Shown: positions 7,784 through 23,078 of the stretch, one piece after another | Layout: each line of letters opens with the position of its first letter | How positions within the stretch are numbered: the first letter of the stretch is position 1 | Assembly (NCBI RefSeq): GCF_900111835.1 | Contig: NZ_FOJP01000003.1 | Span: 62,001 to 126,000 of the forward strand | DNA: 64,000 nucleotides | Reading direction: 5' to 3' | Source of the DNA: Metapseudomonas otitidis | GTDB taxonomy: Bacteria > Pseudomonadota > Gammaproteobacteria > Pseudomonadales > Pseudomonadaceae | Notes under the pieces: generated by a model | Database searches by the model: none | What the model saw: the letters and a program-made list of their open reading frames with translations, nothing else | What the model was told of the DNA's origin: nothing | Position numbers and translations under genes: made by a program

Positions 7784-7810
7784 TTATCGGCGCTTGTCGG
7801 AGGACCTTTA
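7784..7810 (-). promoter_or_regulatory. Sigma-28 promoter of fliC (proximal)
   Basis: On the minus strand TAAA (7807-7810), 15 bases, then GCCGATAA (7784-7791): a full match to the FliA consensus. The predicted start lies about 85 bases before the fliC ATG. Confidence 0.92.
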
Positions 7811-7875
7811 GGGGAGATTCGAAATTTTTTCTCCCGGGGCTTGCTCAACAAGCACGAACTGTGTCCGTACCAGGG

Positions 7876-7901
7876 TTATCGGCGGGTATGACGAAGCTTT
7901 A
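7876..7901 (-). promoter_or_regulatory. Second sigma-28-like element upstream of fliC (distal)
   Basis: On the minus strand TAAA (7898-7901) and GCCGATAA (7876-7883) both match perfectly, but the spacer is 14 bases rather than 15. It lies 91-92 bases upstream of the proximal promoter. It may be a weak second promoter or a decoy site for FliA. Confidence 0.5.
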
Positions 7902-7937: not shown

Positions 7938-10900
7938 TCAGTCCGGCAGCCACGCCGAACGCCAGCGCTGCAGATTCTCGCCCTTCAGCATCCACTCGCC
8001 GAGCACACGCTCACGCAGCGCATCGCCCTGCCGGGCAGTGGCGTCCAGATCGGCCAGGTGCATGCGCACTGCATCCAGCCAGTCCTTGAAGCGGTTCTTA
8101 ACCCGGGTCACCGGCAGGTCGCCGCGGTAGCAGACGGCGTCAGTGCAGATCACCGGGAAGCCGCAGGCACCGTACTCCAGCAGCCGCAGGTTGCTCTTGC
8201 ACTCGTTGAACAGGTTCGGCTCCAGCGGCGCCAACGCCAGGTCCAGGTCCAGGCTCGCCAGCAGCGCCGGGTACTGCTCGATGGGCACGCCGCCGTGGAA
8301 TTCGTGGATATAGGGCCGGATACGCTCCGGGCACATGCCGAAGAAGACCCACTCCACCTCGTCCTTCAGGGCCTTGACCAGGTCGGTGATCAACTCCAGG
8401 TCGCCCAGGTGGCTGCTCCCCCCCGCCCAGCCGACACGCGGCTTGCGGCCTCGACGGCGCTGGCTGCGCAGGTTGCCCCACCAGTGTTCGGGGAGGAAGT
8501 TGGGCACCACCCGAATGTCCCCGTGCAGGTCGCGCAAAGCCTCGGCCAGCGGCTCGGTGGACACCACGAAGCGATCGGTCAGCGCCACCGCCTGCCTGAG
8601 CGAGCGCAGGATGTCCTTCGGCATGGTGTCGCGGTGCACGCTCTTCAGCGGCAGGTTGGGCAGGTAGTCGTCCAGCTCGTAGACCTTGAATACCGAAGAC
8701 AACGCCTTCACCTCGCGCATGCCCTCGATCTGCGGCTCCATGATCTGCCGCTGGAAGACGATGCTGGTGGCCTGGAAGCGTTCCAGTTCCACCGGGGACA
8801 GGTGCACCCCACTGGCCATGCCCTCCGCCCAACCGGCTGCCTTCAGTGCCGCGAGCGGCTGGCGTACACGGTAATGTCCGCAGCCGGTGATGTCCGCCGG
8901 GTAGCACAGCACCTGCGGCAGCAGCGGATCGCTCACGCGGCGCTCGCCGTACTCGAAGCTGAAGCCCGACCCGGCCAGCGACAGGTTGCGGTTATAGGAC
9001 GGATCGTTCGCCAGCACCGGTAGCCAACGCTGCAGCATCTCCTCGCGCTCGGCCTTCAGTGCCGCCTGCCTTGGCAGCGCGCCTTCAATGGCAAGAATCG
9101 GCAGGTCGATGCCATCGCGCCGAACCACGCTGTGGGGCGTCCACACGTTGAGCAGACCCGAAGCGCGGATGCGCAGGCACAGGTCCACGTCGCCATAGAA
9201 AGCCGACAGCTTCGCCTCGTCCATCCCGCCAACGGCCACATAGGCTTCGCGACGCACCATCAGGCAGGCGCTGCCAACGGCGCTGTAGTTCTGCGTCACC
9301 TGCAGGCGATTGAGGTAGCCCGGAGCCTCGAAAGGTTCACCCACAAAGGCACGCCCCGCGACGTCATGGAGCCCCAGCACGATGCCGGCCTGCTCGACGC
9401 TGTTCATCGCATCCAGCACCTTGGCCCCTACCACCCCCACTTCCGGGCGCTGGGCCTGGTTGACCAGCTCATCCAGCCATTCGGGCTGGACGATTTCCAC
9501 GTCGTGGCCCAGCAGCAGCAGGTACTCGCTCTCCACCGTCATCGCCACCGCGTTGACCATGGCCGAGAAATTGAAGGGGCCGGCAAACCGCCACACCTTC
9601 ACCTGCTCGCTCTGCAAGCCCTCGACCCCCTCCAGCCAACTGAGGGTCGCCGCATCCTGGCTTTCGCAATCCACCAGCAGCAACTCGTAATTCGGGTAGC
9701 GGGTGTGCTCCAGCAGGGTTTCCACGCAGCGCTGCAGCAAGGGAAGGTGATCGCGTACCGCCACCACGATGGAGACCCGCGGCTGCTGCGGGTGCCCATA
9801 GTGGATGTGGTAGCGCCTCGGCATCGGGCTCTCGACCCGCGCCTGGAAGCCGCGCTTCTCCAGGTGCCGTTCGATGGCCACCTGCTCGTAGGGGTTGGCC
9901 TGCAATACCGGAACGGGAGCACTCAGCAGCACCTCGTCGACGTGCTCCAGCCCTTGCAGACCATCGCGTTCCACCAGGCGCAACAGCAACTCCAGCTCGG
10001 GAGCCTCGACGAAGATCGGGTCGAACCCGCCCTCGGCCAGGAACACCTCCCGCCGGAAGAACCAGCGCGGCGCCAGGCTCAGGGGGAAGCTGAGCAGCAG
10101 GTCGAGGTTGAAGTCCGGCTTGAAGCACGCCCCGCGAGCACCGGAGGGCGCGCGCTGGAATTCATCGCCATACACCGCCCGGCACCCTTCCAGCCGCTCC
10201 AGGCGTCGCACCATCGCCAGCAGGCCGCCCGCCGTGAACGTCACGCCCGCCTCCACCACCTGCAACCAGTCCACATCGGCTTCGGCGGCCCAGGCGTTGA
10301 TCGCCTGCAATTGCTCACCCTCGGACACGCACAGGCCCATGACGCCGGCTGGGGCCGGCAGCCCAGCCGTGCTCAGCAGCACCGGGACGACATGGGGATA
10401 GAGATTGGCTGCCAGGCTGTCCAGCGTGGCGGAGACCGCATCGGCATCGCCATGGCGATCCAGCACCACCACTGCCAAGCGGGGCGGCCGCGGCTGTTGG
10501 GTCGCCAGGCTGTCGAGGATGCGCGCCAGCGCCGGCCCTTTCGGCGTACCGGAATCCAGCCAGTCCTGCAGCTGGTCGCTGGCCAGCAAGCGACGGGGTT
10601 CCGGCAGCGCCATGCGGCCCATGAACGCAGCAATGGCCGCCGTCGAGTTGCGCGGCAGGGCCTCCACACAGGCCTTCGCGCGCGCCTGCATCGTTTCGCG
10701 GTGAACGTCATCCGTCAGCAGCCGGCGGATGGCGTCGGCCAGTTCGTCCGCCCCCACGGTGTCGACGCCCTGAGCCGGCACCAGGCCGGGCCCATAGAAG
10801 AATCCGGTCTCGGTCATCAGGTTGAGGGCCGGTGTGCCGACCAGCATGGCCTCCACCTGCAGGCCCGAATCCACGGCCACCAGCACATCGGCGCTGAGCA

Positions 10901-11867
10901 GGAAGGGCAACGGTGCGCCGTCGGCGTAGCGGTAGTCATTGGCACCCAGACCGTACTGGGCCGCCAGCAACTGGACCTGCTCAGGCCCGAAGCGCCCCTG
11001 CGGACGCCGGCCCTTGATGATCACCTGGGCTTCACCACCCAGGGCCCGCACAGCCTCCAGGTAGGCCCGCAGCACCTGCTCGTCGATGGCCAGCTCCGGC
11101 GGCAGGCTGTGCTCGGCCAGCAGCGTGGTGCCCAGCACCACGATGGGCCGCGCGGTATCCAGCCCCAGTTCCTGGCACAAGGCCGCACGGGCACTGGCCC
11201 GTTCTTCGCGGGCGTCGAACAGCGAGTCGAACTGCGGCAGACCCAGCACATGCAGACGCTCCGGGTCGAAGCCGGCGTCGCCGTAGAGGCGGCGGCTGTC
11301 CTCGCTCCACACCACCATCAGGTCGGAGTTCTGCTGGTCGTGCACGGTATAGGGGTAGCAGAGCGTCGGGTTGTGCTCGATGTGCAGAGAGGGGATGCCC
11401 CGCGCCTTGGCCCACGCCACCAAGGTCTTGGAACCGAACATCCAGTCCTCGTTGACGGCGACCAGTTCCACCTCGTAGGTCGCCGCCATCCGGTCCAGCG
11501 CATCCACCAGGGCAAAGGACACCGGCAGGGTTCGCGCGGCCACATCCTTCAGGGTGGTCTCCCAGCCGTCCCACTCCAGGCCGGCGGCCTCCAGGTCGGG
11601 GCGCAGGTCCTGGCGCACGGTGTCGCTGAAGGCCAGCGCCTGGCGCTGGTCGAATTCTGCCTGGGCCGAGGGCATCGCCTGGTCCAGCAAGGGGTCGATC
11701 ACCACCAGCTCGCCGCCATGGCGCTGGACCATGGCCTCCAGCTCCGGGGTCAGGCAGCCCTGGAAGGTGATCAGCGTCCGCGGCTCGTTCTCGCTCAGGT
11801 AGCGTTCCAGCAGTGGAATGTTCTTCGGCCAGAGCTGGGTGATGAGGGCACGTACAGGTTGGGACAT
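7938..11867 (-). CDS. Large multidomain glycosyltransferase, probable flagellin glycosyltransferase
   Basis: From the ATG at 11865-11867 (MSQPVRALITQLWPKN) the protein has 1309 residues. A longer in-frame reading to 12011 runs through the upstream gene and is rejected. Four modules can be read: a GT-B-like N-terminal part resembling CDP-glycerol/surface-polysaccharide transferases (about 1-440); a degenerate GT2-like fold (about 460-690); a second, better preserved GT2 (about 695-925, starting VSIVVAVRDHLPLLQ, with YGDVDLCLRIRASG near 892); and a GT4-like C-terminal part (about 984-1309, GCGHYRVRQPL, then LLEYGACGFPVICT). It is the last gene of the pse operon, directly upstream of fliC. Transfer of the nonulosonic acid and further sugars to flagellin is inferred from context, like FgtA in P. 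aeruginosa. Confidence 0.85.
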   Translation of the reverse strand: MSQPVRALITQLWPKNIPLLERYLSENEPRTLITFQGCLTPELEAMVQRHGGELVVIDPLLDQAMPSAQAEFDQRQALAFSDTVRQDLRPDLEAAGLEWDGWETTLKDVAARTLPVSFALVDALDRMAATYEVELVAVNEDWMFGSKTLVAWAKARGIPSLHIEHNPTLCYPYTVHDQQNSDLMVVWSEDSRRLYGDAGFDPERLHVLGLPQFDSLFDAREERASARAALCQELGLDTARPIVVLGTTLLAEHSLPPELAIDEQVLRAYLEAVRALGGEAQVIIKGRRPQGRFGPEQVQLLAAQYGLGANDYRYADGAPLPFLLSADVLVAVDSGLQVEAMLVGTPALNLMTETGFFYGPGLVPAQGVDTVGADELADAIRRLLTDDVHRETMQARAKACVEALPRNSTAAIAAFMGRMALPEPRRLLASDQLQDWLDSGTPKGPALARILDSLATQQPRPPRLAVVVLDRHGDADAVSATLDSLAANLYPHVVPVLLSTAGLPAPAGVMGLCVSEGEQLQAINAWAAEADVDWLQVVEAGVTFTAGGLLAMVRRLERLEGCRAVYGDEFQRAPSGARGACFKPDFNLDLLLSFPLSLAPRWFFRREVFLAEGGFDPIFVEAPELELLLRLVERDGLQGLEHVDEVLLSAPVPVLQANPYEQVAIERHLEKRGFQARVESPMPRRYHIHYGHPQQPRVSIVVAVRDHLPLLQRCVETLLEHTRYPNYELLLVDCESQDAATLSWLEGVEGLQSEQVKVWRFAGPFNFSAMVNAVAMTVESEYLLLLGHDVEIVQPEWLDELVNQAQRPEVGVVGAKVLDAMNSVEQAGIVLGLHDVAGRAFVGEPFEAPGYLNRLQVTQNYSAVGSACLMVRREAYVAVGGMDEAKLSAFYGDVDLCLRIRASGLLNVWTPHSVVRRDGIDLPILAIEGALPRQAALKAEREEMLQRWLPVLANDPSYNRNLSLAGSGFSFEYGERRVSDPLLPQVLCYPADITGCGHYRVRQPLAALKAAGWAEGMASGVHLSPVELERFQATSIVFQRQIMEPQIEGMREVKALSSVFKVYELDDYLPNLPLKSVHRDTMPKDILRSLRQAVALTDRFVVSTEPLAEALRDLHGDIRVVPNFLPEHWWGNLRSQRRRGRKPRVGWAGGSSHLGDLELITDLVKALKDEVEWVFFGMCPERIRPYIHEFHGGVPIEQYPALLASLDLDLALAPLEPNLFNECKSNLRLLEYGACGFPVICTDAVCYRGDLPVTRVKNRFKDWLDAVRMHLADLDATARQGDALRERVLGEWMLKGENLQRWRSAWLPD

Positions 11868-11872
11868 GGGGT

Positions 11873-12427
11873 TCACTCGGCCGAGAAAGCGTTGAACAGC
11901 GAATCGAGCATGCGCGGGAAGGCCTGGTAGTCCAGGGCGCCGCTGAGGTCCACGCCCCGGTACTGGTAAGCGGCCTTCACTTCCGGCTGACGCTCCCAGG
12001 CCTGCAGGCACTGCAGGGCCACGAAGTCGGTGTGGTACTTGCGATGCCAGCGGCGGAAGGTCGCCCAGTGCTGCTCGCCCAGCAGGGCCGACAGGTCCGG
12101 CAGGCTGGCCAGCGGTGTGGGCTGCGCGCCTTCACGGAAGAACCAGACCACGAAGAGAAAGAAGCGATTGCGCGGACGTGCCAGGTGCGCGGCCAACTGT
12201 TCGGCGAGGGCTTCGCGGCTCAGCTCCGGCTGGCCGGGCAGCGACTCCAGGAAGGCCAGGAAGGCCGCGAATGCCGGGTCGCTGTCGCGATAGCCCAGCC
12301 AACGTCGCCAAAGCGATGGCCAGTAGCCGCAGGGTTGTTCGGGGTCGAAGCCGTTGAAGCCCGCCGGCAGCAGCTGCCGCCAGGCCGGCCGGCCCTGCAT
12401 CGAAGAAGGAAGAACGAGTCCGACCAT
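11873..12427 (-). CDS. Uncharacterised 184-residue protein of the glycosylation operon
   Basis: I do not recognise the family. The start is taken as the ATG at 12425-12427 (MVGLVLPSSMQGRPAW), with AGGTAG a few bases upstream; the frame stays open to 12532 but those residues are Cys-rich and unlike a protein start. The protein is soluble-looking, with many Trp, Phe and Arg (RPAWRQLLPAGFNG; FRRWHRKYHTDF), and has no signal peptide and no clear transmembrane segment, though FFLFVVWFF (about 89-97) is strongly hydrophobic. It ends 5 bases before the glycosyltransferase ATG, so translation is probably coupled. A role as partner or adaptor of the transferase is a guess from position. Confidence 0.75.
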   Translation of the reverse strand: MVGLVLPSSMQGRPAWRQLLPAGFNGFDPEQPCGYWPSLWRRWLGYRDSDPAFAAFLAFLESLPGQPELSREALAEQLAAHLARPRNRFFLFVVWFFREGAQPTPLASLPDLSALLGEQHWATFRRWHRKYHTDFVALQCLQAWERQPEVKAAYQYRGVDLSGALDYQAFPRMLDSLFNAFSAE

Positions 12428-12447
12428 AGCGCTACCTGCCTTATCGC

Positions 12448-12471
12448 AGGCCCGACCATCCGGGCGGGCCT
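12448..12471 (-). other. Hairpin in the 82-base gap inside the glycosylation operon
   Basis: A 7-bp stem (AGGCCCG with CGGGCCT) encloses a 10-base loop. It lies between the oxygenase gene stop and the start of the 184-residue gene, the longest gap in the operon. No T tract follows, so it may be an mRNA processing or attenuation element rather than a full terminator. Confidence 0.35.
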
Positions 12472-12509
12472 TGTACGGAAAATTGACGTTGCAGCCCGTG
12501 GAGCAAGAT

Positions 12510-13280
12510 TCACACCAGCAACTGGATGCCACGCGGTTGGGTCAGCCGCTGCACGGGCTCGGGGAAGCTGAACCCGTCCATGAACAGGTAGCCGCTGCGC
12601 CCGCGGATGAAGTCGATGTACTGGCGGGCATGGGCGTTGTTGCGCGAGGCCATGAAGAACACCGCGTACTTCTCATGCTCCACCGGCACCGGCCCGGTGG
12701 GCCAGCAGGCCTTGTGGTCCAGGCGGGTGTTGAAGATCACCAGGTCGCCGGCCTCGCTGGGAACGCGGTAGCCCTTCTGGCTCTCCTCGTACCAGCGCAT
12801 GTCCACGCGGTGGGAACCGGGGATCACCTCCAGCCCGCCGCCGTATTCCGGCGTATTGGCCTGGAGGTAGAACGCGATCTGCACGATGTCGCAATCCGGC
12901 TCCCAGTGAAAACGATGCCCGGCCTTCTGCTGCGAATCGGTGTCCTTGTGCCAGGTGCCGTAGCCGCGGTGATGCAGGGCGGACTCGGGCAGCAGGACGA
13001 AATCCTCGCCCAGCAGCATTTGCAGCACCGTCAGGAACTCGGAGTCGAAGATGGCTTTCCACACCGCCGGGTAGCGGTTGAACACGTCGATGCGAATGCT
13101 GCCCAGGCTGGGGTTGTCGTAGATGTCGCCGGGGTAGCGGGTCTCGCTGGCGAAGGCCTTCACCAGTTCCTCGCGCAGATGGCGGGTGGTCTCGGGGGCG
13201 AGCAACTGCTTGACCAAGGCGAAGCCGTTGTCCTGGTAGCTCTGGCGCAGCGCCTTGGCGAAGGCTTCGTACTCAGACAC
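12510..13280 (-). CDS. PhyH-family Fe(II)/2-oxoglutarate dioxygenase
   Basis: The 256-residue protein shows the phytanoyl-CoA dioxygenase pattern: H111-x-D113 in TWHKDTDS as the first two iron ligands, a third His candidate at H189 in NTRLDHKA, and the beta-strand context GGLEVIPGSHRVD (148-160). It lacks membrane segments. Such enzymes hydroxylate acyl or sugar substrates. The gene overlaps the preceding methyltransferase by 8 bases and is followed by the unknown gene and the large glycosyltransferase, so a glycan tailoring step (hydroxylation of the sugar or an N-acyl group) is the likely job. The substrate cannot be read from the sequence. Confidence 0.85.
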   Translation of the reverse strand: MSEYEAFAKALRQSYQDNGFALVKQLLAPETTRHLREELVKAFASETRYPGDIYDNPSLGSIRIDVFNRYPAVWKAIFDSEFLTVLQMLLGEDFVLLPESALHHRGYGTWHKDTDSQQKAGHRFHWEPDCDIVQIAFYLQANTPEYGGGLEVIPGSHRVDMRWYEESQKGYRVPSEAGDLVIFNTRLDHKACWPTGPVPVEHEKYAVFFMASRNNAHARQYIDFIRGRSGYLFMDGFSFPEPVQRLTQPRGIQLLV

Positions 13281-14301
13281 GGGCGCCCTCCTCCGGCTTG
13301 CGGGCCATCACCCACATGTGGGACGACATCCCCGACTCCGCCAGGAAGCGCTGGAAGGCCGGGCCCAGCTCGTCCCAGCGGTTGAACAGCACGTCCTGCA
13401 GGAAGGGGTCCAGCTCCGCCTCGCGGCCTTGTGCCTGGACGCCCTTGCGCACCAGCTCGGCATCGAGCTTGCCGGGGGTGAAGCAGGCCAGGGTCTCCAG
13501 CCCGTGGCGCTGCAGCAGCAGCGGCAGCGAGCGGGTGTTGAAGTAGTTCAGGTGCTCATGGTCCACGCAGGGGCTCTCCGGCCCCAGTTGCTGGACATCG
13601 AACCCGGCACCGTTCGGGCAGGTGAGGATCAGCGCGCCCCCCGGACGCAGCAGCGCCGACAGGCTGGCCACCACCTGACCGGGGTCGAACAGGTGCTCGA
13701 TCACCTCGAAGGCTGCGATCAGGTCGAAACGCTGGGCAGTCGAGGCGGCATAGACCTCCACCGGTTGCTCCACCACCTCGAAACCCTGCTCGCGGCAGAT
13801 CGCCGCCAGGTCCGGCGTCGGCTCGATGCCGACGATGCGCTGCCACAGCCCGCGCTGCTGCATCTCGCGGCAGAAGGAGCCGTAGCCCGCCCCCACCTCC
13901 AGCAGGTCGCCACAGGGCAGGCCGATGCGCTGGCACAGCTCCAGCACCCGCTCCACCCGTGGCACGATCACCGACTGGTGGCGCGCCTCGGCCGAGGCCG
14001 GGTAGATGTGCCGCGCCCAGTAGGCGTAGTTCTCGCTCTGGCGGTAGAAGTCCGCCAGCAGGCGCTCGCCGGGCCGGGGATTGACGTAGAAGCTGGTGCA
14101 GTCCAGGCAGTCCACGTAGCGGAAGCCGTTCTTCTCGAAGCGTGGCCGGGCGCGCTCGCTGCCGCAGGCCGGGCACGCGCACTGGACGAACTCTTCATTG
14201 CGGGCCAGCAGGAAGGCGATGTCATGCAGCAGGGCCACACGCTGACCGGCCTGCAGGCGCGAAGGGCGGATGTCGTCTTCTTTCACCGTCGCACTCCTCA
14301 A
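13273..14301 (-). CDS. SAM-dependent methyltransferase with N-terminal zinc ribbon
   Basis: Of 342 residues, the first 80 carry a four-Cys zinc ribbon (C43-x2-C46 and C65-x2-C68, the CPAC and CLDC pairs). A class I methyltransferase follows, with SAM motif I LLEVGAGYGSF (133-143), an acidic residue after strand 2 (IVGIEPTPDL) and a motif with FEVIEHL. This architecture resembles sugar C- or O-methyltransferases acting on nucleotide sugars or glycans. Its ATG overlaps the stop of the amidotransferase gene by 4 bases and its own end overlaps the oxygenase gene by 8, so it belongs to the same operon. Exact target unknown. Confidence 0.85.
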   Translation of the reverse strand: MRSATVKEDDIRPSRLQAGQRVALLHDIAFLLARNEEFVQCACPACGSERARPRFEKNGFRYVDCLDCTSFYVNPRPGERLLADFYRQSENYAYWARHIYPASAEARHQSVIVPRVERVLELCQRIGLPCGDLLEVGAGYGSFCREMQQRGLWQRIVGIEPTPDLAAICREQGFEVVEQPVEVYAASTAQRFDLIAAFEVIEHLFDPGQVVASLSALLRPGGALILTCPNGAGFDVQQLGPESPCVDHEHLNYFNTRSLPLLLQRHGLETLACFTPGKLDAELVRKGVQAQGREAELDPFLQDVLFNRWDELGPAFQRFLAESGMSSHMWVMARKPEEGARV

Positions 14302-15491
14302 CCGGCACGCCGGTATTTCTGCTGCTGCGCCTCGGGCAGGTGCACCGGCCCGTAGGCGCTCGGCTCACCCCAGATGTTGTCCTTCCACCACTGGCCATCC
14401 TCGATCCACCAGACACGCGGCGAGCGGAAGGTGTCGGCCGTCTCCCAGAAGGCCTGCTCGGTCATGCCCACGTAGTCCAGCCAGTGCTGCAGGTCGCTGG
14501 ACACCACAGAGTCCATGCGGCGGACGATCTCGATGCCCTCCTCCCGGGTCAGGTAGCCGGCGCGGATGTCTTTGGAGGCATGGTCGGAGGCGCGGCCGTA
14601 GCCGAACTTGATGAACTTGAGCAGGTCGTGCACGCCGTTCTCGTAACGGTCGTCCAGGTTGGACATCTGCCGGTAGGTGCGCTCGAAGGGCTTGTCGGCC
14701 ATCTTCCAGCCGTAGCGTTCCTGCACCAGGCGGGTGTGCTGGTTCGGGTCCCAGGGGAAGAAGTTGCCGATGTAGATGCCCCGCACCCCCGTCTTGAGGA
14801 TGTCGGCATCGCTGGGGTAGCGCGCCCACAGCAGGTCCTTCTCGCGCAGCGGCTCCTCGGGGTCGTCCAGCATGTCGCTCCACTCGAAGCCGCGCAGGGC
14901 GTGCTCGTGGCGGACGCGCGCGCTGAATTCCACGTAGTCGTCCGGGTCGAACATCCCGGAGATGTCCCAGGCCGTCTCGCCCCAGATGATCAGCGGAATG
15001 TCGAACTTCACCGCCACCTGGATCGGGTAGGTCATGATCCCGCAGTGGGCGTGCCAGTTCATGTCGCCCATCTTGCGGAAGCACAGGCGGTTGAGGCGCT
15101 TGAGCACCTCCACGCTGGGGCCGAAGACCATGTGGTCGGCATCGAATACATGGCGCATGCGGTCGCGGTTGTAGTCCCCCTCGGGCAGGTAGTTGTTGCC
15201 GTGGTAGGTCACCAGCAGCGGCTTGAGGCCGTACTGGGCGGCGATCACATGGGCCTGGTAGTAGCTGTCCTTGCCACCGCTGACCGGGATGATGCAGTCG
15301 TAGTTGTCGTTGCGCTTGCCGGCCCCGGTCTCCTCCAGCACCCGCTCGAAGCGCTTGCGGCGCTCGTCCCAGAAGGTGGGCGGCAGCTGGGCGAACTGCT
15401 CGGCGACCTGGCAGGCCGAGCAGACACCGTGCTCGTCCAGCATCAGGTTGACGCTGGCCCGGGGGTACACGCAGCGGCTGCAATATTCCAT
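14298..15491 (-). CDS. N-acetyl sugar amidotransferase (PseA/WbpG family)
   Basis: The 397-residue protein begins with two zinc-ribbon-like Cys pairs (C4-x2-C7 and C24-x2-C27) and has the PP-loop ATP-pyrophosphatase motif PVSGGKDS (69-76). This family converts an N-acetyl to an acetamidino group, using ATP and ammonia. WbpG in P. aeruginosa O-antigen synthesis works with HisH2/HisF2 as ammonia source; PseA makes the acetamidino form of pseudaminic acid in Campylobacter. Both helpers are encoded directly upstream here, 10 bases away. The likely product is therefore an amidinated pseudaminic acid derivative, though the substrate is inferred. Confidence 0.9.
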   Translation of the reverse strand: MEYCSRCVYPRASVNLMLDEHGVCSACQVAEQFAQLPPTFWDERRKRFERVLEETGAGKRNDNYDCIIPVSGGKDSYYQAHVIAAQYGLKPLLVTYHGNNYLPEGDYNRDRMRHVFDADHMVFGPSVEVLKRLNRLCFRKMGDMNWHAHCGIMTYPIQVAVKFDIPLIIWGETAWDISGMFDPDDYVEFSARVRHEHALRGFEWSDMLDDPEEPLREKDLLWARYPSDADILKTGVRGIYIGNFFPWDPNQHTRLVQERYGWKMADKPFERTYRQMSNLDDRYENGVHDLLKFIKFGYGRASDHASKDIRAGYLTREEGIEIVRRMDSVVSSDLQHWLDYVGMTEQAFWETADTFRSPRVWWIEDGQWWKDNIWGEPSAYGPVHLPEAQQQKYRRAG

Positions 15492-15501
15492 GAAGAGGCT
15501 C

Positions 15502-16308
15502 CTAGAGACTGAGTAGCTGGGGGCTGCGAACGTTCAGCCCCTGCTCGAACAGGTACTTGCGCGCCAGGTAGACGCTCTGGTCGGTGTAATGAAAGATGTT
15601 GGCCGCCGCCACCGCGTCGACGCCGGTCTGCTCCAGGGCCTGGGCCATGTGCGACCACTCCCCCACGCCCCCGAGGGCGATCACCGGGATGTGCACGCTG
15701 GCGCAGACCCGGTCCAGCAGGGCCAGGTCGTAGCCCTGGCGCGCGCCGTCCCGGTCGATGGCATTCACCATCACCTCGCCGGCGCCCCGCTCCTGGGCCT
15801 CGCGCACCCAGTCCTCGACACGGCGGCCGGTGTCGCGACGCCCGCCTTCGGCGAACACGCGGTAGTCGTCACCCTGCTGCAGGACATCCACCGAGAGCAC
15901 GATGCACTGCGAGCCGTATTCGCGGCTGGCCGCCTCGATCAGGTTTGGGTCGTCCAGGGCAGCAGTGTTCAGCGTGACCTTGTCTGCCCCCGTGGCCAGG
16001 CGCCGGGCGATATCGTCCAGCGAGCGGATGCGCCCGCCCAGGGTGATCGGCATGAAGGACGCCCGGGCGACTTCGGCGACGATGGCGTCAATGTCCTGCA
16101 GGTTGCGGCTGCCCAGGTCATCACGGCCCAGGTCGTAGTGGTCGTCGCGGCTGATGTCCAGATAGACCAGCTCGTCGGCGGCCCAGTCGCTGAGCCGGCG
16201 GACGGCAGCGGAGGGATTACCCAGCACCTGGTGGCGGGAAAAGCGCTTGCTCTGCACCAGCTGGCCGTTCTTCAGCAGCAGGACCGGGATGATGCGTTTC
16301 TTCTTCAT
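15502..16308 (-). CDS. HisF-like ammonia-channel subunit (HisF2 type)
   Basis: A (beta/alpha)8 barrel protein of 268 residues with a HisF opening (MKKKRIIPVLLLKNG) and duplicated phosphate-binding half-barrels (LGGRIRSLDDIARRL; LGGVGEWS). True HisF has catalytic Asp at position 11 (CLDV); here the aligned residue is Leu (VLLL), while the second acidic residue survives as D141 in LSVDVL. Loss of Asp11 argues against cyclase activity in histidine synthesis and for a role only in channelling ammonia from HisH2 to the amidotransferase. It overlaps hisH2 by 4 bases. Confidence 0.88.
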   Translation of the reverse strand: MKKKRIIPVLLLKNGQLVQSKRFSRHQVLGNPSAAVRRLSDWAADELVYLDISRDDHYDLGRDDLGSRNLQDIDAIVAEVARASFMPITLGGRIRSLDDIARRLATGADKVTLNTAALDDPNLIEAASREYGSQCIVLSVDVLQQGDDYRVFAEGGRRDTGRRVEDWVREAQERGAGEVMVNAIDRDGARQGYDLALLDRVCASVHIPVIALGGVGEWSHMAQALEQTGVDAVAAANIFHYTDQSVYLARKYLFEQGLNVRSPQLLSL

Positions 16309-16916
16309 GCCAGCTCCAGGAAGTTCTTCAGCAGCTGGGCGCCGGCCCGCTGGCTCTTCTCGGGGTGGAACTGCACGCCCAGCACGTTCTCCCGCCCGAC
16401 CACCGCCGGGAAGCGGCTGCCGTACTCGACGGTGGCGATGACGTCATCGGCCGAGGCCGTGGCGAAGGCGTAGCTGTGCACGAAATAGAAGTCCGGCGTG
16501 GCTTCCAACCCCTGCAACAGGGGGTGGGGCAGCTCCCCCCGGATGTCGTTCCAGCCCACGTGGGGCAGCGGCAGGCCGGCACTGTCCAGCGCCAGCACGC
16601 GACCGGGTATCCAGCCGAGCCCGGCATGCTGGCCGAATTCATGACCCTCGTCGCTGAGCACCTGCATGCCCACGCAGATGCCGAGGAAGGGCTTGCCCTG
16701 TTCGAAGACCGCACGGCGCACACCGTCCAGCGGCAATTGCTGGACGATTCGCGCCATCGCCGCGCCGTAGGCCCCCACGCCGGGCAACACCAGGTGGGTG
16801 GCGTCGGCGATCACCTGGGGATCGTTGGAAACCCGGGTTTCCCCAAGGGTGGCGAACAGGTTCGCCACCGAGCGGACGTTGCCGGAGCCGTAGTCGAGGA
16901 TGCACACCCGGCTCAT
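16305..16916 (-). CDS. HisH-like glutamine amidotransferase (HisH2 type)
   Basis: This class I glutaminase of 203 residues has an intact triad: nucleophile C81 in LGICVGMQ and H184/E186 in VQFHPEKS. The N terminus (ILDYGSGNVRSV) is HisH-like. It should hydrolyse glutamine and feed ammonia through the HisF-like subunit to the PP-loop amidotransferase. It overlaps both pseI and hisF2 by 4 bases (ATGA type), so the three are translationally coupled. Context makes a histidine biosynthesis role unlikely; that pathway normally sits in a his cluster elsewhere. Confidence 0.9.
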   Translation of the reverse strand: MSRVCILDYGSGNVRSVANLFATLGETRVSNDPQVIADATHLVLPGVGAYGAAMARIVQQLPLDGVRRAVFEQGKPFLGICVGMQVLSDEGHEFGQHAGLGWIPGRVLALDSAGLPLPHVGWNDIRGELPHPLLQGLEATPDFYFVHSYAFATASADDVIATVEYGSRFPAVVGRENVLGVQFHPEKSQRAGAQLLKNFLELA

Positions 16917-17977
16917 CGACCGCCTCCCGACAGGTGCCGCCAGGCCAGCGCCTGGCCGCGCTTGAGCGGCTCGCTGGCAACGCAGCGCAGCACCTCGTCC
17001 AGGTGCTTGGGCGGCAGGCCGAGGCCCGGACGGATGGCGCGCACGTTGTCGGCCGTGAAGGGCTCGCCGGCGGCGATGTCACGCACCACGTAGAGGGAAC
17101 GACGAAACACCAGGGACTTGCGCTCGGCCGGCGTGGGCCCGTAGTGGACCTGCCCGAGGGCCTGCCAGGCCCGCTCGGTTTCGCTCACCAGGGCCGCCAG
17201 CTCGGCCGGCTCCAGGGAGAAGGCGGAATCCACCCCGCCCTCGGCACGGGACAGGGTGAAGTGTTTTTCGATCACGCTGGCGCCCAGGGCGACGGCCGCC
17301 ACCGAGGCGCCGACGCCGAGGGTGTGGTCGCTCAGCCCCACTTCGCAGCCGAACAGCTCGCGCATGTGGGGAATGCTGCGCAGGTGGGTGTTGGCCGGGC
17401 TGGCCGGGTAGGTGCTGGTGCATTTGAGCAGCACCAGGTCACGGCAACCGGCGCCGCGTGCCGCGTCGACGCAGTCCTGGATCTCGCCGACGCTGGCCAT
17501 GCCGGTGGAGATGATCAGCGGCTTGCCGGTGGCGGCCACGCGACGGATCAGCGGCAGGTCGACGTTCTCGAAACTGGCGATCTTGTAGGCGGGCACGCCG
17601 AGGGATTCGAGGAAGTCCACCGATGTGGCGTCGAACGGCGTGGAGAAGGCCTCCAGACCGCGCTCGCGGGCGCGGCGGAAGATCGGCTCGTGCCATTCCC
17701 AGGGGGTGTAGGCCTCACCGTACAGACGATAGAGCGAGGTGCCGCTCCACAGGCTGTCGGGGTCGCCGATGTGGAACTCGCCCTCGTCCAGGTCGAGGGT
17801 CATGGTGTCCGGGGTGTAGGTCTGCAGCTTCAGCGCGTGGGCGCCGGCATCGGCGGCGGCATCCACCAGCGCCAGGGCACGCTCCAGGGACTGGTTGTGG
17901 TTGCCGCTCATCTCGGCGATGACGAAGGGCGCCGCATCACGCCCGATGGCTCTGGCGCCGATCCGAAAGGTGCTCAT
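16913..17977 (-). CDS. pseI: PseI, pseudaminic acid synthase
   Basis: The 354-residue protein has a NeuB-type TIM barrel (FVIAEMSGNHNQSLERAL at 18-35; LKLQTYTPDTMTLD; IEKHFTLSR) and a C-terminal SAF/antifreeze-like domain (about 292-350, VVRDIAAGEPFTADNVRAIRPG). It condenses 6-deoxy-AltdiNAc with phosphoenolpyruvate to make pseudaminic acid. The Gly-Asn-His motif and the opening are typical of PseI rather than NeuB or LegI, and the neighbouring PseB, PseC, PseF and PseG settle it. Its ATG overlaps the pseGH stop by 4 bases. Confidence 0.95.
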   Translation of the reverse strand: MSTFRIGARAIGRDAAPFVIAEMSGNHNQSLERALALVDAAADAGAHALKLQTYTPDTMTLDLDEGEFHIGDPDSLWSGTSLYRLYGEAYTPWEWHEPIFRRARERGLEAFSTPFDATSVDFLESLGVPAYKIASFENVDLPLIRRVAATGKPLIISTGMASVGEIQDCVDAARGAGCRDLVLLKCTSTYPASPANTHLRSIPHMRELFGCEVGLSDHTLGVGASVAAVALGASVIEKHFTLSRAEGGVDSAFSLEPAELAALVSETERAWQALGQVHYGPTPAERKSLVFRRSLYVVRDIAAGEPFTADNVRAIRPGLGLPPKHLDEVLRCVASEPLKRGQALAWRHLSGGGR

Positions 17978-19473
17978 CGGCTCTCTCCCTGCAGGGTTCG
18001 TTGAAACACACAGTGACGCTGGGTGAAACCGGCGCGCTCGAAGAGTAACAGCGAGGCGAGGTTGTCAGGGCGTACCCGTGCCTCCACCCCGCTCACCTCC
18101 GGCCAGTGAAGGGCCAGGGCCGCCTCGCCGGCCTGCAGCATGTACAGGCCCCAGCCGGCCGAATCGCGGCCGGGCAGCAGGTAGAGCGAGACCTCGACCC
18201 GCGCCGTCTCGATGCGGTCGTAGCGCAGCACGCCAACCGGGCCGTCCGCCGCCTCGGCCAGCCACAGCAGGTGCTGGTCCGGGCTGGCGAGCACACGCTC
18301 CAGCCAGCGCACATGGGACGACCACTCCACCGGCTCGGTGTTGAGCGACGCCCGTCGCACCGGCTCGGCGTTGCGCCCTTCGAACAGCAGCTGGGCGTCG
18401 TCCAGGGTTGCCGCGCGCATGCGCAGGTCACGGGCCAGCAGGGCCGCGACCACGCGCCGGACGCCACGCCCGTCCACGGTCTCCCGCCCCCGCGCCGCCA
18501 GGCTGCGGCGCAGGCCCGGGTTGCCGAGCAGGATCCGTAGCGCCGCACGGTAATCATCGACCGCCAGGTCGGCAGCCTCTCCCAGGTAGAGGTGCAGGCC
18601 CGCCTCGGCCAGCCGCTCGGCATTGGGGCGCTGGTTGGGCGCCAGGGCCACGCAGAGCGTCGGCAGGCCCAGCGCAGCGCGCTCCCAGGTGGTGCCGCCG
18701 CCGGCGCCGATGCACAGGTCGGCCTGGCGCATCAGCCCGGCAAAGTCGTCGACGTGGCGATGCAGGGTCCAGCGGGGGTGCTGGCTTACCCGCTGCTCCA
18801 GTTCGCCCCACGCCGGGTTGGCAGCGCCGGCGACCACGTCGACCGCCACGTCGGGAAAGGTTTCCAGCGCGGCCAGGGCCTTCAGGGTCTCGCCGCCGAT
18901 GTCCACGCCGCCGAAGCTCACCAGTACCCGCTCCACCCGCTCGGCAACAGCGATCGGCGCGCCCTGGAAAGCCTCGCGCAGGAGCGCGAAGTGAGGCCCG
19001 AGCAGCGGTTGACGGACAGTCGCCAGCGAGTCGTCGTCCAGGCGCTGGCGTGCGGTGGCGTTCTGATCCAGCAGCAGGTCGACCTCATGGGGGCGGTGCA
19101 GCAGGTCGTCGATGGCCATGACCCAGCGGGCACGCAGGCGAACGCCCCGCTCCCACTCGGCGCCGAGGCCGTAGTGGTCCACCACGCACCAGTCGAACGT
19201 CGTGCCAGCGGGCAGCGCCTGCCACAAGGCGGCCAGGTCCTCTGCCCAGGGCAAGGGGGACTCTACGCAGGCGCGCTCATCCTCGACGCCTTCCAGGCGG
19301 TGCACCGGGAACCCCCGGGCGGCGATCAGCGCCAGCCCGTCACCCAGGCCTGGCCGGCAGGCGAACTGCACGTCGCAGCCGGCCTGGCGCAGCGCCTCGG
19401 CCAGGGTCAGGCAGCGCATCACATGGCCGGAGCCGATGCGCAGGGACGCATCCGCCCGCACCAGCACCCGCAT
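17974..19473 (-). CDS. pseG: PseG-PseH fusion: UDP-sugar hydrolase plus N-acetyltransferase
   Basis: The 499-residue protein joins two normally separate enzymes. Residues 1-345 are PseG, a GT-B-fold hydrolase with the catalytic His17 in IGSGHVMRC and nucleotide-binding loop CIGAGGGTTWERAALG (254-269); it releases UDP from UDP-2,4-diacetamido-2,4,6-trideoxy-altrose. Residues 352-499 are a GNAT acetyltransferase (MRAATLDDAQLLF; PDNLASLLLFERAGF) replacing PseH, which acetylates the 4-amino group one step earlier. No frameshift is present, so this is a true fusion. It starts directly after the pseF stop. Confidence 0.93.
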   Translation of the reverse strand: MRVLVRADASLRIGSGHVMRCLTLAEALRQAGCDVQFACRPGLGDGLALIAARGFPVHRLEGVEDERACVESPLPWAEDLAALWQALPAGTTFDWCVVDHYGLGAEWERGVRLRARWVMAIDDLLHRPHEVDLLLDQNATARQRLDDDSLATVRQPLLGPHFALLREAFQGAPIAVAERVERVLVSFGGVDIGGETLKALAALETFPDVAVDVVAGAANPAWGELEQRVSQHPRWTLHRHVDDFAGLMRQADLCIGAGGGTTWERAALGLPTLCVALAPNQRPNAERLAEAGLHLYLGEAADLAVDDYRAALRILLGNPGLRRSLAARGRETVDGRGVRRVVAALLARDLRMRAATLDDAQLLFEGRNAEPVRRASLNTEPVEWSSHVRWLERVLASPDQHLLWLAEAADGPVGVLRYDRIETARVEVSLYLLPGRDSAGWGLYMLQAGEAALALHWPEVSGVEARVRPDNLASLLLFERAGFTQRHCVFQRTLQGESR

Positions 19474-20178
19474 TCAGATGTCCCCTTCCAGCAGCAGCGC
19501 GGTGTACATCTGCTCGGCCCGGTGCCAATCGTCGGGGGTGTCGATGTCCTGTACCAGGAAGCGCGGCAGTACCAACGGCCGCGAATGCGCGGCGTGGATC
19601 GGCTCGCCACGGGTCCAGGCCTCGGTACGCCCCCAGTAGAACTGACCGGCATCGTGGTAGGCCGGCTCCAGGTCCTGGGAGCGGGTTTCGCGGAACTGCG
19701 GGTAGAGCGACTCCACGCCGCCCTCGGCGGTGAGGCGCAGGGCGCGCTGCACCGGCGAAGCGAAATCGGTGACGGTGAAGGCGTAGTGCGCATCGGGGTG
19801 TTGCAGCAGCAGATCCAGCCCGGCCTGCAGGCTGTCGGCCTGGACGAAGGGCGCGGTGGCGTAAAGGCAGCAGACCAGCTCCGGCTGTTGGCCGGCGGCC
19901 GCCAGCTCGGCAACGGCATGCTGGATGACTGCGACCGTGCCGGCATGGTCGTCGGCCAGGGCCGCCGGGCGCATGAAGGGCACCTCGGCACCCAGTTCGC
20001 GGGCCACGCCGGCGATCTCCTCGTCGTCGGTGCTGACGATCACCCGGTCGAACAGCCCGGACAGCAGGGCCGCGCGGATCGGGTAGGCGATCATCGGCTG
20101 GCCCTGGAAGAGCTTGATGTTCTTGCGCGGGATGCGCTTGCTGCCGCCTCGGGCAGGGATGATGGCGACGCGGCTCAT
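19474..20178 (-). CDS. pseF: PseF, pseudaminic acid cytidylyltransferase
   Basis: The 234-residue protein opens with the CMP-sugar synthetase signature IIPARGGSKRIPRKN (6-20) and carries the CTP/metal site pattern with FDRVIVSTDDEEIA. It activates pseudaminic acid to CMP-Pse, the donor for the flagellin glycosyltransferase. The length fits PseF (225-235). The ATG overlaps the upstream methyltransferase stop by 4 bases and the stop directly abuts pseGH. Confidence 0.95.
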   Translation of the reverse strand: MSRVAIIPARGGSKRIPRKNIKLFQGQPMIAYPIRAALLSGLFDRVIVSTDDEEIAGVARELGAEVPFMRPAALADDHAGTVAVIQHAVAELAAAGQQPELVCCLYATAPFVQADSLQAGLDLLLQHPDAHYAFTVTDFASPVQRALRLTAEGGVESLYPQFRETRSQDLEPAYHDAGQFYWGRTEAWTRGEPIHAAHSRPLVLPRFLVQDIDTPDDWHRAEQMYTALLLEGDI

Positions 20179-20795
20179 GGGCGCTTCTCCAGCAGGAACC
20201 AGGTGATGTCGTCGGTGGGGAAGCTCGGGTCACGGCGGTAGACGAAGCCGTAGTCCACCAGGCGCAGGTCCTCGTAGCGGTCGAGCAGCTCGCCGGCGAA
20301 GTCGCGCTTGAACAGCTTGCCCGCGTGCCCCCGGTAGCTCACCTCCACCGGTGAGGGGTTGTAGTACTCGGCGACGAGTACATAGCGCCGGCTGGCCTCG
20401 TACAGCTTGGCGTAGGCCTTGGGCAGCAGCTCGGGCGGCAGGTGGATGAGCACACCACGGGTGAACGCCAGGTCCACCGGCTGGCGCACCGGGTAATCGA
20501 ACAGCGAGCCGTGCCAGACCTCGGCGATGCCCAGCCCCTGGGCGATGGCGTGGGCCTTGGCATTCAGCTCGACGCCATGCAGGGCAGCGTCCGGCAGCAG
20601 CCGGTGCAGCGCCTGGAGGTTGAGCCCGCGGTTGGTGCCCAGCTCCAGCAGGCTGTCGAGCCGCCCGGCACGGCGCAGGGCCTGGGCGAAGAAGGCGGTG
20701 GCGCTGGCCACGTGGCGCTCGCCGTCGTTGCGGTCGACGTAGTCGTCACCGAACTCGCCCTGCCAGAAACGTTCCTGCTCGGTCAGTTCGCGCAT
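20175..20795 (-). CDS. Pseudaminic acid biosynthesis-associated methyltransferase
   Basis: A class I SAM methyltransferase of 206 residues, with motif I LLELGTNRGLNLQAL and motif AFTRGVLIHLPPELL. Its small size and PseC-PseF location match the family named for association with pseudaminic acid clusters. The acceptor is not known; methylation of the nonulosonic acid or of a nucleotide-sugar intermediate is possible. The gene starts 12 bases after pseC and ends overlapping pseF by 4. Confidence 0.88.
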   Translation of the reverse strand: MRELTEQERFWQGEFGDDYVDRNDGERHVASATAFFAQALRRAGRLDSLLELGTNRGLNLQALHRLLPDAALHGVELNAKAHAIAQGLGIAEVWHGSLFDYPVRQPVDLAFTRGVLIHLPPELLPKAYAKLYEASRRYVLVAEYYNPSPVEVSYRGHAGKLFKRDFAGELLDRYEDLRLVDYGFVYRRDPSFPTDDITWFLLEKRP

Positions 20796-20807
20796 GGCGC
20801 GTCTCCT

Positions 20808-21965
20808 TCAGCGCAGGAGGGGGGTCAATGCCTGCACCACCCGCTCCTGCTGGTCATCGGTCATGCCGTGGAAGAGCGGCAGGCTCAGGGCCTCGGCGTA
20901 ATAGCGCTCGGCTTCGGGGAAGTCGCCCGGGGCGAAGCCCAGCCGCTGGTAATGAGGCTGCAGGTGCACCGGGATGTAGTGCAGGTTGACGCCGATGCCG
21001 GCGGCCCGCAGCCCCTCGAATACTTCGCAGTGGCTGCGGCGGATGGCGTCCAGGCGCAGGCGCACCGGGTAGAGGTGCCAGGCCGAGTCGGCCCCCTCCT
21101 GGCGCCCCGGCAGGCGCAGCGGCAGGTCGGCGAGCAACTCGTCGTAGCGCTCGGCCAGGGCACGACGACGGGCGACGAAGGCCTCCAGGCGCTGCAACTG
21201 GGAGAAGCCGAGGGCGGCCTGCAGGTCGGTCATGCGGTAGTTGAAGCCCAGTTCCAGCTGCTGGTAGTACCAGGGGCCGTGGCTGGCTTCAGTCATCGCG
21301 GCCGGGTCGCGGGTGATGCCGTGGCTGCGCAGGCGCCGCAGGCGCTCCGCCAGGTGCGGGTCCTGGGTGGTGAGCATGCCGCCCTCGCCGGTGGTGATGA
21401 TCTTCACCGGGTGGAAGCTGAACACGCTGATGTCGGCATGGGCGCCGCAGCCCACCGGGCGCCCGAGGTAGGCGGCGCCGACGGCGTGGGAGGCGTCCTC
21501 GATCACGCGGAAGCCGTAGCGCCGGGCCAGCGCGGCGATGCGCGCCATGTCGCAGCTCTGCCCGGCGAAGGCCACCGGCACCAGCACCTTGGGCAACCGG
21601 CCGCGCTGCTCGGCCTGGGCGAGGCGAACCTCCAGCAGGTCCACGTCAAGGTTGAGGGTGCGCGGGTCGATGTCGACGAAGTCCACCCGGGCGCCGCAGT
21701 AGAGCGCGCAATTGGCGCTGGCGACAAAGGTGTTGGGGCTGGTCCAGAGCCAGTCCCCCGGGCCCAGGTCGAGGGCCAGGCAGGCGATGTGCAGGGCTGC
21801 CGTGGCGTTGCTGACGGCGATGCCGTGGGCGGCCTCGCAGCGGGCGGCGAAGGTGCCCTCGAAACGCTCGATGGCCGGCCCCTGGGTCAGCCAGTCGGAG
21901 TTGAGGGTCTCGACGACGGCGTCGATGTCCGCCTGGGAAATGCTCTGGCGTCCGTAGGGAATCAT
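20808..21965 (-). CDS. pseC: PseC, UDP-4-amino-4,6-dideoxy-N-acetyl-altrosamine transaminase
   Basis: A DegT/DnrJ/EryC1-type aminotransferase of 385 residues. The PLP Lys is K188 in VFSFHPVKIITTGEGGM, and the cofactor Asp lies in VIEDASHAVGA (154-164). It aminates the 4-keto product of PseB with glutamate as donor. The start MIPYGRQSIS is the family's usual one. It begins 2 bases after the pseB stop. Confidence 0.95.
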   Translation of the reverse strand: MIPYGRQSISQADIDAVVETLNSDWLTQGPAIERFEGTFAARCEAAHGIAVSNATAALHIACLALDLGPGDWLWTSPNTFVASANCALYCGARVDFVDIDPRTLNLDVDLLEVRLAQAEQRGRLPKVLVPVAFAGQSCDMARIAALARRYGFRVIEDASHAVGAAYLGRPVGCGAHADISVFSFHPVKIITTGEGGMLTTQDPHLAERLRRLRSHGITRDPAAMTEASHGPWYYQQLELGFNYRMTDLQAALGFSQLQRLEAFVARRRALAERYDELLADLPLRLPGRQEGADSAWHLYPVRLRLDAIRRSHCEVFEGLRAAGIGVNLHYIPVHLQPHYQRLGFAPGDFPEAERYYAEALSLPLFHGMTDDQQERVVQALTPLLR

Positions 21966-21967
21966 GC

Positions 21968-22963
21968 TCAGGACCAGGCCTCGGCCAGCTCGCGCAGTTC
22001 GGCGACGCTGAGGTAGTGGGGATTGCTGTCTGAGACGTACTCGAAGCCCTCCTCCACGGCCCGCCCGATCCCTCCCAGGCCGTCACAGGCGTAGTCGTAC
22101 TGCATGTTGAAGTTGATGGAGGGGGCGATGACGAAGTGGCTGTCGAATTCCCAGGTGTGGGAGCTGTCATCGCGGGAAATCATCATCTCGTGCAGCTTCT
22201 CGCCGGGGCGGATGCCCACCAGGCGATGGGGCAGGCCCGGTGCGAGGGCCTCGGCCAGGTCGGTGATGCGTGCGGAGGGGATCTTCGGCACGAACAGCTC
22301 GCCGCCCTGCATGCGCTCGAAGCTGCGCATGACGAAGTCGACGCCCTGGTCGAGGGTGATCCAGAAGCGGGTCATGCGCGCATCGGTGATCGGCAGCTCG
22401 CGGGCGCCGTCGGCCAGCAGCTTGCGGAAGAACGGCAGCACCGAGCCCCGCGAGCCGACCACGTTGCCGTAGCGGACGACGGCGAAACGGGTCTGGTGAT
22501 CGCCGGTGATGTTGTTGGCGGCAACGAACAGCTTGTCGCTCAGCAGCTTGGTGGCGCCGTAGAGGTTGATGGGGCTGGAGGCCTTGTCGGTGGAGAGCGC
22601 CACCACCTTCTGCACGCCGTTGGCGATGGCGCCGTTGATGATGTTCTCGGCGCCACCGACGTTGGTGCGGATGCATTCGGTGGGGTTGTATTCGGCGGCC
22701 GGCACCTGCTTGAGGGCTGCGGCGTGGACTACCAGGTCGATGCCGCGCAGGGCCTGCTGGACGCGGTCGGCGTCGCGCACGTCGCCCAGGAAGTAGCGCA
22801 TGCAGGGGGCATTGAACTCCTGCTGCATCTCGTACTGCTTGAGCTCGTCCCGCGAGAACACCACCACGCGCTTGGGCTGGTAGCGCTTGAGCAGGCTGCG
22901 GATGAAGGAGCGACCGAACGAGCCGGTGCCTCCGGATACGAATACGGACTTGCCATCGAACAT
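21968..22963 (-). CDS. pseB: PseB, UDP-N-acetylglucosamine 4,6-dehydratase (5-inverting)
   Basis: From the ATG at 22961-22963 the protein has 331 residues; a longer in-frame reading adds nine residues but GGGGAG sits correctly only before this ATG. It is an extended short-chain dehydrogenase with NAD(P)-binding GGTGSFG (11-17), catalytic D126-K127 in STDKASSP and Y135/K139 in YGATK. It starts the pseudaminic acid pathway from UDP-GlcNAc. As first gene of the operon, it is preceded by a sigma-54 promoter about 100 bases upstream. Confidence 0.95.
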   Translation of the reverse strand: MFDGKSVFVSGGTGSFGRSFIRSLLKRYQPKRVVVFSRDELKQYEMQQEFNAPCMRYFLGDVRDADRVQQALRGIDLVVHAAALKQVPAAEYNPTECIRTNVGGAENIINGAIANGVQKVVALSTDKASSPINLYGATKLLSDKLFVAANNITGDHQTRFAVVRYGNVVGSRGSVLPFFRKLLADGARELPITDARMTRFWITLDQGVDFVMRSFERMQGGELFVPKIPSARITDLAEALAPGLPHRLVGIRPGEKLHEMMISRDDSSHTWEFDSHFVIAPSINFNMQYDYACDGLGGIGRAVEEGFEYVSDSNPHYLSVAELRELAEAWS

Positions 22964-23062: not shown

Positions 23063-23078
23063 AGCAAGCATGGTGCCA
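23063..23078 (-). promoter_or_regulatory. Sigma-54 promoter of the pse/glycosylation operon
   Basis: The minus strand reads TGGCACCATGCTTGCT, with GG and GC 10 bases apart and every conserved base present (TGGCAC-N5-TTGCT). The predicted start lies about 90 bases before the pseB ATG, leaving room for a leader. It is as good a match as the flgB and flgF promoters in this window. Confidence 0.85.

Follow-up and report, generated by a model that had tools for sequence, protein, structure and literature searches.

The 64,000-nucleotide stretch of the Metapseudomonas otitidis genome analysed here (contig NZ_FOJP01000003.1, positions 62,001 to 126,000; hereafter "the window") carries a 13-gene operon at positions 7938–22963 of the minus strand, sandwiched between the flagellar genes flgL and fliC. 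Its genes follow each other in the order pseB, pseC, pseMT, pseF, pseGH, pseI, hisH2, hisF2, wbuX, ZnMT, phyH, unk and gGT (Table 1), and all 13 genes that a first-pass annotation of this DNA had listed are present at this place. That annotation also predicted that the operon serves to decorate flagellin with an amidinated pseudaminic acid (Pse), a prediction that finds good support in the genes present, their position, their conserved motifs, and their co-inheritance; the predicted product appears to have an ordinary sugar core. In the following, we describe these lines of evidence, and the way in which the sugar may be attached to flagellin.

Table 1. Genes of the operon and neighbouring features in the window.
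Feature	Product or role	Positions	Strand	Remarks
pseB	UDP-GlcNAc (uridine diphosphate N-acetylglucosamine) 4,6-dehydratase (inverting)	21968..22963	-	TIGR03589 above cut-off; start MFDG
pseC	Aminotransferase	20808..21965	-	TIGR03588 above cut-off
pseMT	Pse-associated methylase	20175..20795	-	TIGR03587 above cut-off
pseF	CMP-Pse (cytidine monophosphate-Pse) synthetase	19474..20178	-	TIGR03584 above cut-off
pseGH	Hydrolase fused to GNAT acyltransferase	17974..19473	-	PseG above, PseH below cut-off
pseI	Pse synthase	16913..17977	-	TIGR03586 above cut-off
hisH2	Glutamine amidotransferase	16305..16916	-	TIGR01855 above cut-off; GICVG and QFHPE motifs
hisF2	Ammonia-relay subunit	15502..16308	-	Under three HisF-type cut-offs; second hisF-family gene
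wbuX	PP-loop N-acetyl sugar amidotransferase	14298..15491	-	TIGR03573 above cut-off; Cys pairs, VSGGKDS; 8wex
ZnMT	Zinc-ribbon S-adenosylmethionine (SAM) methyltransferase	13273..14286	-	Methyltransf_23, E 4.3e-23
phyH	PhyH-type Fe/2-oxoglutarate oxygenase	12510..13280	-	PF05721, E 2.9e-10
unk	Orphan helical protein, 184 aa	11873..12427	-	Start conserved in relatives
gGT	Giant glycosyltransferase (GT)	7938..11867	-	GT-B-like N-terminal module (~residues 1-430), then GT2, C-terminal GT; start conserved in relatives
fliC	Flagellin, presumed acceptor	6228..7691	-	Flagellin_N and Flagellin_C
Sigma-54-like site	-24/-12 site upstream of pseB	23064..23078	-	TGGCAC-N5-TTGC pattern
Sigma-28-like sites	Two sites upstream of fliC	7784..7901 (from 7901 and 7810)	-	Pattern match

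The end of the operon at 22963 agrees with a pseB start at MFDG (331 residues), which also opens pseB in the relatives compared. Of the 12 gene junctions, five are overlaps (four of 4 bases, one of 8), six are spaced by 0–12 bases, and one by 82 bases, so that the initial description of mostly 4–8-base overlaps was too strong. A search for the same gene order in other Pseudomonas genomes, as the first-pass annotation had proposed, yielded four further genomes with the same genes in the same order and at the same flgL–fliC position, and the arrangement is therefore not due to chance. In one of these (G007), the operon is spread over two contigs. The gGT gene, a single frame in G007, consists of two overlapping frames in the finished genome G008 (L036:13483-17993); sequencing error, decay, and switching are candidate explanations for this split.

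Protein families were assigned by scores against NCBIfam cut-offs, which are equivalog cut-offs for the Pse enzymes. All five of PseB (542.7 bits versus a cut-off of 407.75), PseC (553.9 versus 423.5), PseF (336.9 versus 205.7), PseG (274.9 versus 153.55), and PseI (492.6 versus 340.25) clear them, and pseI is the sole NeuB-family match in its own genome (E 0.001). The PseH half of pseGH contains a GNAT domain and scores below its cut-off (35.4 versus 93.1 bits), which makes the acyl group uncertain; another acyl donor may be in use. The pseMT product (TIGR03587, 296 versus 112.05 bits), WbuX (314 versus 203.2), and HisH2 (scored as HisH, 217.9 versus 105.4) are also above their thresholds. 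HisF2 falls under all three HisF-type cut-offs (WbuZ, 255.8 versus 299.7; hisF, 226.9 versus 294.55; HisF2/AglZ, 208.2 versus 310). The authentic hisF gene sits on another contig (C37), and its RIIPCLDVDNG motif reads RIIPVLLLKNG in HisF2, with loss of an aspartate that we take to be catalytic. The operon contains a WbuX-type amidotransferase together with dedicated HisH and HisF proteins, the gene set of WbpG/PseA-type amidination, and WbuX has a structurally solved relative (8wex, E 2.4e-37). The motifs of HisH2, WbuX, and PhyH, including the HxD and distal histidine of the latter, are kept across the five genomes that carry the operon. A lone TGA flagged in wbuX of two of these genomes (G051 and G061) was considered as recoding and rejected, as this codon is the regular stop of the gene and lies one codon short of the end of the alignment.

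Among 398 genomes of the family Pseudomonadaceae, 117 contain a PseI above the cut-off. One locus was examined in each (the second PseI locus of G334 was excluded), with up to 20 kb taken around PseI in 108 genomes and the other nine loci coming from separate extractions and the window. Flagellar Pse islands are common, with 56 of the 117 loci adjoining flagellin genes; the 61 loci classed as non-flagellar include three of less than 10 kb and one with Maf at the contig end (L154) that is probably flagellar. The complete operon was found in five of the 398 genomes, which account for the five amidinated islands among the 56: the window, P. alcaligenes MRY13-0052 (G007), G008, P. oryzihabitans NBRC 102199 (G051), and P. 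rhizoryzae RY24 (G061). At the thresholds used, hisH2, hisF2, wbuX, ZnMT, phyH, and unk occur in an all-or-none fashion, with the full set in all five amidinated islands and none in the other 51. Because these five islands are related, they do not represent five independent events. The pseMT gene is distributed differently, being found in all five and in 24 of the 51 others. Of the 61 non-flagellar loci, nine have HisH and HisF matches, four of these with a WbuX of more than 100 bits, and none of the nine contains ZnMT, PhyH, or unk. Some non-flagellar Pse clusters (L043, L044, L045, and L046) carry the HisH, HisF, and WbuX-like genes twice over, as would be expected if two sugars received an amidine.

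In the family survey, the unk protein turned up in the five amidinated islands and nowhere else, and of 293 genomes of the order only its own had it. It has no Pfam or NCBIfam match at E 0.001 and nothing under E 0.2 in PHROGs; its AlphaFold2 model has a predicted local distance difference test (pLDDT) score of 75, and the sole fold match in the Protein Data Bank (E 9.9) is meaningless.

Outside Pseudomonas, WbuX was sought in one genome per species across 84,980 species, in a non-exhaustive scan that used two short conserved peptides as probes. This returned 41 loci, 26 of which have a WbuX with at least 50% identity; 23 of these are non-Pseudomonas loci from many phyla, with identities of up to 76%. 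HisH and HisF are both present in 20 of the 23, the other three being contigs under 6 kb, and 16 have a NeuB-family match of at least 120 bits. The series L048-L073 (WbuX identity of 50–76%) comprises metagenome-assembled genomes from many phyla, Patescibacteria and Omnitrophota among them, and suggests that one amidination trio has spread widely. In two loci, radical SAM genes directly follow the trio (L051:11228-12343 and L052:11189-12754, one with a B12-binding domain), a possible source of extra tailoring. Campylobacterota-type WbuX loci are only 36–37% identical, for which reason we do not claim WbuX as a PseA orthologue.

Maf is the usual nonulosonate transferase. The genome under study contains no Maf domain (PF01973, no match at E 0.001), which leads us to propose the N-terminal module of gGT (hereafter the N-domain) as the transferase. 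Across the family, Maf accompanied by a KAS-III-like gene is present in 47 of the 56 flagellar Pse loci (families were tested on L138 and assigned to the other loci by similarity), and none of these 47 contains the N-domain; the two were never found together. In the islands of genus g14, the interval from pseI to fliC houses Maf and the KAS-III-like gene (L138:8121-10529, with matching sites in 47 loci). Maf is missing from nine flagellar loci, namely those of the five amidinated islands plus L161, L174, L171 (G125), and L195 (G158); in G125, a gGT with the N-domain lies at the opposite end of the single contig (L209). A family-wide search detected the N-domain in 12 of the 398 genomes, in each case within a large protein adjoining fliC (split into two frames in G008), and 11 of these islands also contain a PseI/NeuB-type synthase, assuming a circular contig for G125. 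No Maf was found in the stretches examined around these 12 islands. The division between Maf and N-domain islands is not purely one of genus, since the N-domain genome G208 belongs to g14, the home of the Maf islands.

In genus g1, a gGT match was obtained in 14 of 18 genomes; it includes the N-domain in four and starts at about residue 430–452 in ten. The genome G002 has a weak NeuB-like open reading frame (80 bits) at the edge of its gGT locus. Three N-domain loci (L197, L216, and L217) form a second type of island, in which PseI is divergent; L197 also contains WbqC-like and flavin amine oxidase-like genes. Non-amidinated g6 islands (L174:9258-13979 and L209) have a methyltransferase-like stretch, recognized by eye, inside gGT behind the N-domain, and L174 has a separate methyltransferase gene after pseI. 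Another cluster of G008 (L005/L213) contains a relative of the N-domain (33 bits), which was not counted: the same profile gives a protein of the UDP-GlcNAc 2-epimerase family 23 bits there, and the relative is similar to epimerases and to CDP-glycerol transferases.

Pairs of related islands indicate how sugar genes and gGT are inherited. Amidinated G051 and non-amidinated G125, both of genus g6, are nearly identical in flgL (99%), pseB (99%), pseC (95%), and fleQ (99%), and diverge in pseF (71%), pseI (74%), the N-domain (34%), and the C-terminal part of gGT (55%). G007 and G017 are similar from pseB (96%) through pseC (94%) and pseMT (92%) to pseF (87%), then drop to 48% in pseG, 40% in pseI, and 33% in the N-domain, and recover to 83% in GT2, 88% in the C-terminal part, and 93% in fliC. 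The left border of this exchanged block is the start of pseGH, where the two genomes go from 94% to 51% DNA identity within some 200 bases, and the right border lies within gGT, where identity rises from 37% (residues 511–562) to 88% (residues 703–762). Domain trees of eight sequences each conflict accordingly: the N-domain tree, which includes G017 and carries a long-branch warning for it, unites the amidinated types of two genera (support 100/100) and rejects a g1 grouping (approximately unbiased test, p-AU 2.65e-05), whereas in the GT2 and C-terminal tree G007 groups with G017 (99/99) and a grouping of the amidinated types is rejected (p-AU 0.022). It thus appears that the N-terminal half of gGT is exchanged with the sugar genes and that the C-terminal half stays with the backbone. 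Faster divergence of the N-terminal part could mimic such a swap, and the N-domain is indeed more diverged than the C-terminal part in the cross-type comparisons made. We nevertheless regard this explanation as very improbable, given the abrupt border at pseGH, the conflict between the trees, and N-domain identities of 64–68% across genera within the amidinated type compared with 33–35% between types in one genus.

Taken together, we consider it reasonably probable that the operon synthesizes a Pse that is amidinated and probably also methylated and attaches it to flagellin, that the N-domain is a CMP-nonulosonate transferase, and that this domain and the sugar genes form an exchangeable cassette. 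Judging from family membership, PseB, PseC, PseGH, PseI, and PseF would produce CMP-Pse, HisH2 would free ammonia from glutamine, HisF2 would relay it, and WbuX would convert an N-acetyl group to an acetamidino group. ZnMT could then methylate the amidine or its carbon, with pseMT adding a methyl group elsewhere and PhyH hydroxylating the sugar. The co-inheritance described above suggests that the GT-B-like N-domain transfers the nonulosonate, and the GT2/C-terminal part would place the core sugar on FliC. A precedent is PA1091 of P. aeruginosa PAO1, which combines a core transferase of the GT2 type with another transferase in one protein: flagellin is bare in the PA1091 mutant, and mutants of neighbouring genes keep the core deoxyhexose only (PMC11833859). 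By this logic, the N-domain would transfer the nonulosonate and the GT2/C-terminal part the core sugar, which is a deoxyhexose in the PAO1 analogue. The flagellar frame would remain constant, and the sugar genes and the N-domain would be exchanged within it as one cassette.

Several observations weigh against this reading, and some favour specific alternatives. For attachment, L195 lacks both Maf and the N-domain, and G113 has an N-domain in an island without a synthase. This island (L215:1145-8558) keeps flgL-pseB-gGT-fliC, with pseB directly before gGT and the remaining Pse genes missing, and looks like a deletion remnant. The N-domain has faint GT4-type Pfam matches, a poor predicted model (pLDDT 62), and weak Foldseek GT-B matches (template modelling score of about 0.3). 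In g6, the exchanged block takes in all of gGT, so that only the G007/G017 pair separates its halves. Alternatively, it might be the GT2 or the C-terminal part of gGT that attaches Pse, or does so with the help of unk, and the N-domain would add something else. The weakness of the fold assignment would suit this alternative, as would the fact that every one of the 12 N-domain proteins for which the gene was seen in full also has GT2 and C-terminal parts. We judge it unlikely all the same: these parts are found in the ten g1 islands whose gGT lacks the N-domain, none of them with a PseI match at E 1e-60; an exchange of sugar genes leaves the GT2 and C-terminal parts with the backbone; and unk was seen in the amidinated islands alone.

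Further points for and against the favoured reading concern the tailoring genes. The first-pass annotation had suggested added methyl or hydroxyl groups, of which only the former finds an echo elsewhere: ZnMT lies beside or within the trio in five of the 23 non-Pseudomonas loci (L058 and L066-L069; inside the trio in L068) and may thus methylate the amidine, whereas PhyH has no support from loci outside Pseudomonas. The neighbourhood seems to tie ZnMT to amidination, but to no particular atom. Within the operon-bearing genomes, its zinc ribbon was matched in G007 and G008, and the SAM motif pattern was unmatched there. ZnMT could also methylate a carbon or oxygen of the sugar ahead of amidination and simply happen to sit next to the trio, an alternative to which we give somewhat less than an even chance. 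It would account for the closest solved relative, a D-mycarose 3-C-methyltransferase (E 7.4e-12, methyltransferase core only), and for the 18 of 23 trio loci that lack ZnMT; it explains less readily why ZnMT adjoins or interrupts the trio where it does occur and, with a threshold of 100 bits, is missing from 112 of the 117 Pse loci, all of them without a flagellar amidination block. Finally, none of the 23 non-Pseudomonas loci contains a flagellin gene within the DNA examined. This could mean that the operon serves a surface polysaccharide, with fliC an incidental neighbour, which we consider the least probable of the alternatives, as the flgL–fliC position is identical in five genomes and gGT-type proteins also adjoin fliC in islands with other sugars.

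Related pathways are known from other bacteria. Campylobacter jejuni flagellin carries acetamidino-Pse, and C. coli flagellin carries N-methylacetimidoyl-legionaminic acid; as in the operon, the Pse pathway and an amidotransferase (PseA) lie beside flagellin genes (PMC3958885). Campylobacter, however, uses maf genes, and the Campylobacterota-type WbuX loci, with their low identity, have no ZnMT, PhyH, unk, or N-domain matches at the thresholds used. Flagellar islands of Clostridium, with predicted acetamidino-Pse and methylated Pse, are similar in content but Maf-based and from a different phylum (PMC13317340). Methylation of an amidinated nonulosonate is described for PtmH and Legionella ORF8, N-methyltransferases that act on legionaminic acid, an activity akin to the one proposed for ZnMT (PMC3766260, PMC13306086). 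The PA1088-PA1091 system, by its description, shares with the operon a giant fused core and terminal transferase beside fliC, but its terminal group is phospho-N,N-dimethylthreonine and no nonulosonate (PMC11833859). FlmG of Caulobacter crescentus mediates Maf-independent flagellin pseudaminylation, but is described as combining an N-terminal part that binds flagellin with a transferase at the C-terminus (PMC7591256). It is about evenly balanced, in our view, whether the N-domain is a further flagellin nonulosonate transferase besides Maf and FlmG, namely a plug-in domain that matches the local sugar, here N-methyl-amidinated Pse, and is exchanged by cassette recombination.

These comparisons qualify the novelty that had been assigned to the gene combination, given that flagellar Pse islands are common and acetamidino-Pse is known on Campylobacter flagellin. 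Among the papers that full-text searches of open-access articles listed, none describes an amidinated Pse island in Pseudomonas in its title or the start of its abstract, and a word search of the available text of a 2021 review on Pseudomonas flagella did not return "pseudaminic" or "nonulosonic" (PMC8036289). What appears new is the Pseudomonas setting, the methylase-coupled amidination, and above all the exchangeable, Maf-free transferase module; the mode of attachment, which the first-pass annotation did not raise, may be of more interest than the sugar itself. If correct, flagellin glycans would diversify by swapping a sugar pathway together with the matching transferase domain, with a breakpoint inside one gene and with the frame and core transferase staying in place. 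This would offer a testable answer to how nonulosonates are attached without Maf, and would make the N-domain a possible part for glycoengineering. ZnMT and PhyH would be candidate enzymes for sugars that we did not find described on flagellin in the literature searched.

Promoter-like sites were located with sigma-54 and sigma-28 patterns that we presume to represent the respective consensus sequences. A strict sigma-28 pattern gave no promoter for the operon itself. TGGCAC-N5-TTGC, a sigma-54-like pattern widened after seeing the sequence, has three matches in the window, compared with 0.16 expected from mononucleotide shuffles. It is unmatched in five g6 loci scanned, where TGGC and TTGC are discernible by eye at equal spacing, a reading made after the fact. 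The 15-base site upstream of pseB is identical in the G007 and G008 loci.

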